Below are positions 10,225 through 13,434 of a stretch of DNA of 64,000 nucleotides, piece by piece; position 1 is the first letter of the stretch; each line of letters starts with the position of its first letter. Source of the stretch: Promethearchaeota archaeon. GTDB lineage: Archaea; Asgardarchaeota; Lokiarchaeia; Sigyniarchaeales; SOKP01. Location: the NCBI GenBank assembly GCA_011364975.1, contig RDOE01000005.1:1-64000 (forward strand). The letters run 5' to 3'. The position numbers and the translations under genes were made by a program. The notes below the pieces were generated by a model that worked only from the letters and a program-made list of their open reading frames with translations, did not search any database and was not told the origin of the DNA.

Positions 10225-10527
10225 TTAATCCTTTTTTAAAATTAATTTACTTATGGGGATATCCTGGTATTCCCCTGAGGGGTATTCTCTTCTAATCGTA
10301 AGAGGCAGAATTCCTGTTTTAAGTTCTGCAAGAGCAATTTTTATGGGATCTATCATCCCCTTAGGTTTTTCTACGAGTATAGGTGCACCGTAAGAAATTT
10401 GTAACGCTCTTGCACCGGTAATTCTAGCTTTTTCATACCTGGTTAGAAAAATGGGTCCTACTTTGACATATTTCCTAACTTCATTATATTTTTTTCTTAA
10501 TTCACGCGATTCTAAAAAGGAGGACAT
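10225..10527 (-). CDS. rpoK: DNA-directed RNA polymerase subunit K (Rpb6/omega family)
   Basis: LTRYEKARITGARALQISYGAPILV...PIKIALAELKTGILPLTIRREYPSGEY. Confidence 0.93.
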   Translation of the reverse strand: MSSFLESRELRKKYNEVRKYVKVGPIFLTRYEKARITGARALQISYGAPILVEKPKGMIDPIKIALAELKTGILPLTIRREYPSGEYQDIPISKLILKKD

Positions 10528-10650
10528 GGTCTAAACCATAAAATGAGTAATTATGGGATAAAATATAAAATAACATAAAACTTTTTTGGTTTTAATAAGA
10601 ACTTACGACGGTTGAAATGTGAACGGAGTCAATATAGTGCGCAAGGGGGG

Positions 10651-10680
10651 AAGTGTTCTATCATTTAGATATTTTATGAT
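10651..10680 (-). other. tRNA intron 3, T-loop (near 59/60)
   Basis: 30 nt between TTCAAAT and CCCCC of the T arm; internal TATCAT...ATGATA hairpin. Confidence 0.78.
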
Positions 10681-10695
10681 ATTTGAACCCCCGAC

Positions 10696-10727
10696 CGTCG
10701 AGATCGTTACGAAACTATCGTAATGAC
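10696..10727 (-). other. tRNA intron 2, variable loop (45/46 or up to 48/49; GTC repeat at the junction makes the site ambiguous)
   Basis: 32 nt between AA and GTC-GGGGG; contains ATTACG/CGTAAC hairpin. Confidence 0.75.
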
Positions 10728-10743
10728 TTACACGGTGTGAGCG

Positions 10744-10775
10744 TTTAACGTAATTCGTTGTTAATTCATAAACTA
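10744..10775 (-). other. tRNA intron 1, position 29/30 (anticodon stem)
   Basis: Removal joins ACA+CG to give ACACG, which pairs exactly with CGTGT. Confidence 0.8.
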
Positions 10776-11079
10776 TGTCGTTATACGACTAAACCACTCG
10801 CGCATTATATTAATATCTATTAATAATATGTTTGCTTATTTATTTTTTTTATTATTTTTGAAGTTTACATAATTATAAAGATTAGGTGAGAGAAATTGTA
10901 AAATTCAGAAGAGTTCGCTGTTTATTATCTAGTATTTATTTAATAAGCGAGAATACGGAGTTTTAAGCAATTGAACGTTAATTTATTAAAAAGTTATTAA
11001 GATAATTTAAGAGATTCGATAGACTCTTAATTTTTATTAAATAAGTGATTATTTTTTCGTATAAAGTAATTTGGAATAA

Positions 11080-13434
11080 TTGAGCTTGGTGATTTCTGTA
11101 GTATCAAATGAGTCCTTTATCTCGCATCCCTTAATTAAGGAAAATACTGTTTTAAGACGCGAATATCAGGAAAACATCTTTATTAACTGTTTAAACACTA
11201 ATTGCATGGTAATTATACCCACGGGATTAGGAAAAACGATAGTTGGACTCATGTTGGCGGTTCAGAGATTATCTGAATTTCCAAATTCAAAAATAATTCT
11301 TTTAGCTCCGACCAAACCGTTAGTAAATCAGCATTATTCTTCTTTTTTGGACCTTACTGTAATCCCCCCTGAAAGTTTAAAAGCGATTACTGGAACTACG
11401 GCTCCTGAGAAAAGGAGAGAGCTCTGGGAGGATTTACAGGTTGCTTTTATGACCCCCCAAGTACTTCAAAATGATATCATCTCAAATGTATGTTCTTTAA
11501 AGGATGTATCTCTCATAATTTTTGACGAATGTCATCGAGCAGTCGGTGATTATGCGTATTGTTTTATAGCAAAGAAGTATATGGAGAGCGCAAGAAATTC
11601 GCAAATATTAGGTTTAACCGCTAGTCCGGGTTCTACAGAAGGAAAAATAAATGAGATTAAAACTAATTTGTATATCAAACATATCGAGATAAGAACAGAG
11701 AAAGATTCTGATGTTAAACCATACATTCAGAAAGTTGATAATGAATGGATCAAAGTAAAGCTTCCTTCTCAATTTTTAGAAATTAAAAACATCATAGTAG
11801 AGAAATTAAGAACGAATTATAAATTTTTAAAGGAGGTGGATTTATTAGCTTCTTCAGACCTTACAAAAGTAGTGCGGAAAGACCTCCTTAAAGTTGACTC
11901 GATAATTAATAGTCGATTACGGAGTACCAGAGATGACAACGAAAAATATCAATTATTTGCGGCAAAAAAATCTACTGCTAATGCCATCAGATTATCCCAT
12001 ATGGATGAATTGATTGAAACACAAGGAGTGAGTGCATTTCATGATTATGTAGAAAAAAATAAAGATAAAATTAAACGAAATACTGCTAATAAATCGTTAT
12101 TGGAATTATTTAATGATCCGGATATTAAACACATTATTAAATTATCTGAATCCGTGATATCTCAAAATATTGTTCATCCGAAACTTGAAAAATTACAGGA
12201 TTTATTAATTACCCAACTGAACGAAAATGAGCAATCAAGGATTTTAGTGTTTTGTCATTTTCGGGATTCTGTTAACAATATTGTTTCCTTCTTGGAAGGA
12301 AAAGAGAATATCCGGGTTCATAAATTTGTAGGGCAACAAACAAAATCATCCGACAAAGGGTTAACTCAAAAGGAACAATTGCAAATTATACAAGAGTTTA
12401 AAGAAGGAATATATAACACTCTTATTGCCACCAGCGTAGGAGAGGAAGGATTAGACATTGCTGAATGTGACTTGGTTGTATTTTATGATGTTGTTCCAAG
12501 TGCCATTCGGTCTATTCAACGTCGAGGTAGAACCGGCAGAAAGAAGGAAGGAAAAGTTTTTATTCTAATGGCAGAAGGTACTCGAGATGAGGGATATTAT
12601 TGGGCAGAAAAGTCAAAAGAACGAACAATGAAAGAGAGTTTAAGAAAGATGAAAGAGAATGAATTACCTGCAAAGGCAGGTCAATCCAATCTTCTTAATT
12701 TTATTGAAAAGCCTAAAAAAGAAAATACAGCGCCATCTAACCAAAATCCAGAAACCTCATCTGATATTCCCAAAATGGAAGATGCTAATCATTTTTCTAT
12801 TATATGTGATACTCGAGAAACAGTTTCACCTGTGGTTAGAAATTTATCCTTGATTGGAGTTAATTTAAAGTTAGAGCAGTTACCTGTAGCGGATTATATT
12901 ATTTCTGAGCGTGTGGGAGTTGAGAGAAAGTCTTCTGACGATTTTAATAATTCCATTAAAGATGGGAGACTTTTTAATGAGTTATTCGAGTTGAGGAATA
13001 ACTTCGAGCGACCGATATTAGTGTTAGAAGGTAATCCCTTATTAAATACCCCAATTTCAGAGAATGCAGTTTATGGTGCTATTACGTCAATTATTTTAAA
13101 TCTTGGGATCCTAGTGTACAAGACAGTTGATCCATATGAAACTGCAATATTTTTATATCAATTGGCGAAGAAAGAACAATCTGAAAATAAAGGTGACCCA
13201 AAGTTACGATTTGAGAAAAAACCTCTTGAAACTTCGCGCTTATTAGAATATATTGTTGCAGGTATACCAGGAATAAATGCGTTACGTGCAAAGAATTTAT
13301 TGAGAGATTTAACTTCTCTTCAATCAATATTTAACGCAGATATTGGAGATCTTCTTAAAATTGAAAACATTGGAAAAAAAATAGCCCAAGAAATCTATAG
13401 AATTAGTAGATATAAGTATAAAAGTGATACTTAA
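11080..13434 (+). CDS. hef: Hef: DEAH helicase fused to XPF/ERCC4-type nuclease and HhH domain
   Basis: PTGLGKT, DECH, TSVGEEGLDI, QRRGRTGR; nuclease VGVERKSSDDF; C-terminal HhH pair. Confidence 0.95.
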   Translation: MSLVISVVSNESFISHPLIKENTVLRREYQENIFINCLNTNCMVIIPTGLGKTIVGLMLAVQRLSEFPNSKIILLAPTKPLVNQHYSSFLDLTVIPPESLKAITGTTAPEKRRELWEDLQVAFMTPQVLQNDIISNVCSLKDVSLIIFDECHRAVGDYAYCFIAKKYMESARNSQILGLTASPGSTEGKINEIKTNLYIKHIEIRTEKDSDVKPYIQKVDNEWIKVKLPSQFLEIKNIIVEKLRTNYKFLKEVDLLASSDLTKVVRKDLLKVDSIINSRLRSTRDDNEKYQLFAAKKSTANAIRLSHMDELIETQGVSAFHDYVEKNKDKIKRNTANKSLLELFNDPDIKHIIKLSESVISQNIVHPKLEKLQDLLITQLNENEQSRILVFCHFRDSVNNIVSFLEGKENIRVHKFVGQQTKSSDKGLTQKEQLQIIQEFKEGIYNTLIATSVGEEGLDIAECDLVVFYDVVPSAIRSIQRRGRTGRKKEGKVFILMAEGTRDEGYYWAEKSKERTMKESLRKMKENELPAKAGQSNLLNFIEKPKKENTAPSNQNPETSSDIPKMEDANHFSIICDTRETVSPVVRNLSLIGVNLKLEQLPVADYIISERVGVERKSSDDFNNSIKDGRLFNELFELRNNFERPILVLEGNPLLNTPISENAVYGAITSIILNLGILVYKTVDPYETAIFLYQLAKKEQSENKGDPKLRFEKKPLETSRLLEYIVAGIPGINALRAKNLLRDLTSLQSIFNADIGDLLKIENIGKKIAQEIYRISRYKYKSDT

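Follow-up and report, generated by a model that had tools for sequence, protein, structure and literature searches.

The stretch of Lokiarchaeota DNA analysed here (the window; 64,000 nucleotides) belongs to an assembly of 3.74 Mb in 200 contigs. It contains, on the minus strand, a 166-nt gene for pre-tRNA-Val(CAC) (10638-10803). The gene is located between a plus-strand gene for a protein that, judged from its sequence, is a Hef-like helicase/nuclease (11080..13434) and a downstream minus-strand open reading frame, included for context only, that presumably encodes RNA polymerase subunit K/Rpb6 (10225..10527). The minus-strand sequence of the interval, when re-read, matched the description in the initial annotation, which had proposed a cryptic tRNA-Val(CAC) with three non-canonical BHB-type introns and had suggested that standard scanners may miss it. 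ARAGORN called no tRNA in the window from the unspliced gene, and no Rfam family scored above threshold at this position. Removal of three blocks of 32, 32 and 30 nt, however, yielded a complete 72-nt tRNA-Val(CAC) by ARAGORN, and the proposal is further supported by the BHB register and the orthologues described below. Neither ARAGORN nor Rfam detects the gene, so the tRNA sets of Lokiarchaeota are easily undercounted.

Exon 1 (10777..10803, 27 nt with a short D loop) comprises the 5' acceptor strand and the D arm, positions 1-28, and is 96% identical to its orthologues across nt 1-28. Intron A (10745..10776, 32 nt) interrupts the 5' strand of the anticodon stem at 28/29; its central helix (AACG/CGTT) is paired at 4/4 and its intron helix at 5/5 positions, and the intron is missing in intronless orthologues. 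Exon 2 (10729..10744; positions 29-44) supplies the remainder of the anticodon arm including the anticodon CAC, and is followed by intron C (10697..10728, 32 nt) at 44/45 in the variable loop. The central helix of intron C (CGTG/CTCG) is paired at 3/4 positions, with a U-U mismatch, and its intron helix at 4/5; in orthologues that have CACG the central helix is fully paired. Exon 3 (10683..10696; positions 45-58) carries the variable loop and the 5' half of the T arm, intron D (10653..10682, 30 nt) lies in the T loop at 58/59 (GTTC/GAAC, 4/4; TATCA/TGATA, 5/5), and exon 4 (10638..10652; positions 59-73) provides the 3' half of the T arm, the 3' acceptor strand and A73, pairing 7/7 with exon 1 and 5/5 with exon 3. 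All exons and introns are on the minus strand, and the anticodon loop itself is uninterrupted, all three introns being elsewhere.

The predicted mature molecule has the anticodon CAC, U33, paired stems and TTC in the T loop, with every acceptor, anticodon and T-stem pair intact. The D arm is the weak element. The absence of the G18-G19 pair and the three-pair D stem, both remarked upon at the outset, are genuine: the D loop has C18-G19, and the D stem has the same three pairs as in the orthologues. G18 is near-universal in tRNAs, although it is not an isotype criterion, and C18 could weaken the tRNA elbow. The T13-T22 mismatch of the D arm is also present in intronless orthologues and C18 occurs in nine genomes, so the weakness of the D arm is characteristic of the lineage. 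The nine C18 genomes are that of the window and those containing L010, L011, L013, L014, L015, L057, L059 and L061; the other orthologues have GG.

Orthologous loci were retrieved through the Hef-like gene, which returned 58 loci, nearly all from Lokiarchaeota. Counting the window, a tRNA-Val(CAC) was readable at 46 loci, the other 45 belonging to relatives (43 parsed by script and 3 by hand), and nearly all of the tRNA genes sit just upstream of the Hef-like gene. Once spliced, all 42 script-parsed orthologues read as tRNA-Val(CAC). Introns occupy four sites in this set, A (28/29), B (in the anticodon loop), C (44/45) and D (58/59), in ten combinations of zero to three introns per gene across the 46 loci: C+D (9), A (9), A+C+D (8), none (5), B (4), C (3), A+C (2), B+D (2), D (2) and A+B+D (2). 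The five intronless orthologues are ordinary tRNA-Val(CAC) genes of 73-75 nt and reveal the exon boundaries. Three introns are thus present in 10 of the 46 genes, and the initial view that a three-intron tRNA is rare does not hold within the class of the host. Within the genus of the window, 21 of 24 genomes contain a DNA match to the gene; one genome of this genus (G027) has two intron-containing copies of tRNA-Val(CAC), on contigs C108 (L179) and C149 (L172). In L041 the anticodon-loop intron is cut at 36/37 instead of the canonical 37/38, as indicated by both BHB register and sequence.

The exact positions of the junctions were evaluated by sliding both cuts of an intron together and scoring pairing of the four-base central helix across the orthologues. 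Mean pairing peaked at a single register for each site (3.84, 3.33 and 3.29 of 4 for A, C and D, respectively), compared with approximately 2.5 or less at other shifts, and the intron-side helices peaked at the same register at all three sites. Fully paired central helices were found at this register in 16/19 (A), 7/21 (C) and 12/21 (D) sequences, and in 0-2 at other shifts. In the window gene the central helices are paired at 4, 3 and 4 of 4 positions and the intron helices at 5, 4 and 5 of 5 (A, C and D, respectively). The T stem, as the exon helix of intron D, scores 3.81 of 4 across orthologues. Intron D is a strict hBHBh' motif, and introns A and C are relaxed HBh' motifs. When the full precursor was folded without constraints, the minimum-energy structure did not show the three BHBs together.

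The junctions at 28/29, 44/45 and 58/59 each differ by one base from those originally assigned (29/30, 45/46 and 59/60). A genuine tRNA spliced at the latter positions is a rather improbable alternative. It derives some support from the window gene, where cuts at 28/29 and 29/30 give the same mature sequence for intron A, and from intronless L016 and L017, in which position 59 is A, as the 59/60 cut would give. Against it, a shift of +1 leaves full central helices in 0/19 (A), 2/21 (C) and 2/21 (D) sequences. Furthermore, in L020, L042, L047 and L064 intron A starts with a T immediately after the last exon C (following GAC or AAC), so only the 28/29 cut preserves the anticodon stem. The 44/45 cut generates G45, matching the intronless orthologues, and the mature variable loop is consequently AGGTC rather than AAGTC. 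Similarly, 58/59 yields the T loop TTCAATT in place of the TTCAAAT read earlier, a sequence found as such in nine orthologues that lack intron D; the T loop reads TTCAAAT or TTCGAAT in two intronless orthologues, which makes 58/59 the least certain of the three junctions.

The exons and introns of the gene differ markedly in their conservation, the exons being 83-99% and the introns 50-67% identical to the listed set of orthologues. The intron stems also covary. Pairing with a species' own partner strand exceeded pairing with the partner from other species at all three sites (4.53 vs 3.79 of 7 for A, 5.82 vs 4.42 for C and 5.00 vs 3.40 for D), the direction of the effect being identical throughout; own-partner pairing was reached by 2, 0 and 0 of 5000 permutations for A, C and D, respectively, although the sequences are related and the significance is therefore overstated. 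These data bear on whether the gene is a decaying tRNA pseudogene that contains insertions and has lost splicing, which we consider highly unlikely. The replacement of G18 by C18, the U-U mismatch in one central helix and the presence of a tRNA-Val(TAC) in the genome would be compatible with decay. Such decay is, however, difficult to reconcile with the intact acceptor, anticodon and T-stem pairs, the excess of exon over intron conservation, the covarying intron stems and the lack of any other detected copy. With respect to the last point, the genome was searched with RF00005, with the mature sequence and with the complete gene, and none of these searches detected a second tRNA-Val(CAC), although one interrupted by a different set of introns could go unnoticed. 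Thus the combination initially named as decisive against the gene, a second intact copy and junctions without a BHB-like fold, did not materialize. The remaining valine tRNA genes found have the anticodons GAC (C11) and TAC (C21, intron-bearing), of which the TAC species could in principle read GUG and may thereby render the CAC gene dispensable.

In a blind search, up to three BHB-like introns were removed before ARAGORN was applied; the real sequence yielded full-length tRNAs, while none of 60 interior-shuffled controls did so. The three-intron solution was among the top BHB scores, but as several solutions tie at the top the choice between them rests on comparison with the orthologues. That the likeness to a tRNA is a chance resemblance, for which the silence of the standard scanners might speak, has a negligible probability and is refuted by the orthologues at 45 other loci, together with the shuffled controls.

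The genome encodes two splicing endonuclease genes (PF01974) and one RtcB gene (PF01139). In the endonuclease encoded on contig C126, which is nearest to the Aeropyrum pernix subunit, the catalytic Tyr, His and Lys are aligned, whereas the protein encoded on C191 has Phe in place of the Tyr and lacks the His; the catalytic Tyr/His/Lys triad is thus confined to one subunit. This pattern, a catalytic C126 and a structural C191 subunit, is as deduced from the alignments that of an (alpha-beta)2 enzyme. The (alpha-beta)2 endonuclease of A. pernix (3P1Z, 3AJV) is the closest solved relative of the C126 subunit and contains the same loop: in the C126 loop, GISKPRL, residues 58-60 (KPR) align with K44-P45-R46 of A. 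pernix. The two systems differ in that the Lokiarchaeota enzyme is known here by sequence and its C191 subunit is nearest to the M. jannaschii enzyme. In Crenarchaea, the Crenarchaea-specific loop with its conserved lysine enables the cutting of relaxed motifs (PMC6379350); the residue after the lysine is typically Pro or Val, and the next one Lys or Arg (PMC12397907). The main texts of both papers make no mention of Asgard archaea. A report of the loop from Korarchaeota (PMC4033280) had already extended it beyond Crenarchaea. The loop lysine is present in all 49 aligned Asgard catalytic subunits, including that of the window genome.

The observed structure of the gene, its conservation and covariation, the BHB register and the enzymes encoded in the genome lead us to view the locus as, very probably, a functional archaeal tRNA-Val(CAC) gene present in a single copy, with a transcript that contains three BHB-type introns and is spliced by an (alpha-beta)2 endonuclease and RtcB to a 72-nt tRNA that reads GUG. 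Transcription, cutting, ligation and translational use are predictions from sequence. In the proposed route each junction would present two three-base bulges opposite one another, and the (alpha-beta)2-type endonuclease would cut both between their second and third bases. Intron D would be presented as a strict motif in which the T stem serves as the outer helix; an endonuclease whose specific loop is of the Crenarchaea type would be expected to cut the relaxed motifs of introns A and C as well. The RtcB ligase would then unite the four exons into the 72-nt, GUG-reading tRNA.

The known archaeal maximum is three introns per tRNA gene (PMC8450103), and in 2024 multi-intron tRNAs with introns at non-canonical positions were described in Atabey- and Freyarchaeia (PMC11291895). 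A literature search, incomplete in its coverage, found no description of multi-intron tRNAs in Lokiarchaeota. The window gene is confirmed as a further case of this known kind, and its orthologues form a comparative series of unusual quality. The comparison originally drawn with Thermoproteales holds in that multi-intron tRNAs are known there, but the host is a Lokiarchaeon. Pyrobaculum and its relatives likewise have short BHB introns at non-canonical sites, at most three per gene, and an (alpha-beta)2 endonuclease with the Crenarchaea-specific loop (PMC4090602, PMC4033280, PMC8450103). They differ in belonging to another phylum and in their listed sites, 29/30, 45/46 and 59/60 (PMC4090602) beside 28/29, 44/45 and 58/59 here; in addition, the Lokiarchaeon is not established as a hyperthermophile. 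Atabeyarchaeia and Freyarchaeia are likewise Asgard archaea with multi-intron tRNA genes but represent other Asgard classes, and the available part of that report neither follows the presence or absence of introns at one locus through a series of genomes nor analyses BHB register or the endonuclease loop (PMC11291895).

With ten combinations of introns among 46 genomes, this single syntenic locus offers a natural series for testing how archaeal tRNA introns are acquired and lost. On the tree of the Hef-like proteins, the fewest changes amount to 8 for site A, 8 for B, 6 for C and 10 for D, a total of at least 32, to which L009 and L049 contribute; both are included in these counts and may be non-orthologous. 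In these two loci the tRNA-Val(CAC) (L009, 4486; L049, 5299, plus strand) has a different body and another position, as though a different gene had taken the place of the usual copy. Close neighbours on the tree can have different introns: L028, which has B+D, groups as the sister of L026 (A), and L058 (B) adjoins L033 and L034 (C+D). L022 has Hef-like proteins near-identical to those of L021 and L032, but its tRNA gene contains an anticodon-loop intron and has different acceptor and T stems, a possible gene replacement. The T-loop intron of the window genome's tRNA-Arg(GCG) scores 24 of 30 against intron D of a relative's tRNA-Val, a score equalled by 1 of 2000 shuffles. This likeness, in the one pair of tRNA genes compared, fits the transposition described for Thermoproteales (PMC4090602). 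We are modestly inclined to the view that, within Lokiarchaeota, BHB introns at the four sites of this one orthologous tRNA gene are gained, lost and exchanged over the time that separates genera to families, with some T-loop introns common to different tRNA genes. If so, introns would be actively mobile in archaea other than Thermoproteales, and their mobility would be made possible by a ‘Crenarchaea-specific' loop that Asgard archaea in fact possess generally. Asgard archaea are the closest archaeal kin of eukaryotes, and the conserved loop of their endonuclease bears on the timing of broad-specificity tRNA splicing before eukaryotes.

The intron-removal procedure also identified non-canonical BHB introns in further tRNA genes of the window genome, namely Pro(GGG), Pro(TGG), Thr(GGT), Gly(GCC), Leu(TAA), Ala(CGC) and Ser(GCT); seven such genes lie on contigs C73, C138, C199, C157, C64, C200 and C21 (L077, L082, L079, L078, L083, L086 and L085). 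It gave no sensible solution for a Leu (C170), an Arg (C169) and the Arg(GCG) (C193) gene. The last of these (L087, C193:3876-3961) has an intron near the anticodon in addition to the T-loop intron that resembles those in the tRNA-Val(CAC) genes of relatives. In the same genome, L081 (C106:34349-34413) resembles a selenocysteine tRNA (UCA) and contains an extra D-arm segment, probably an intron.
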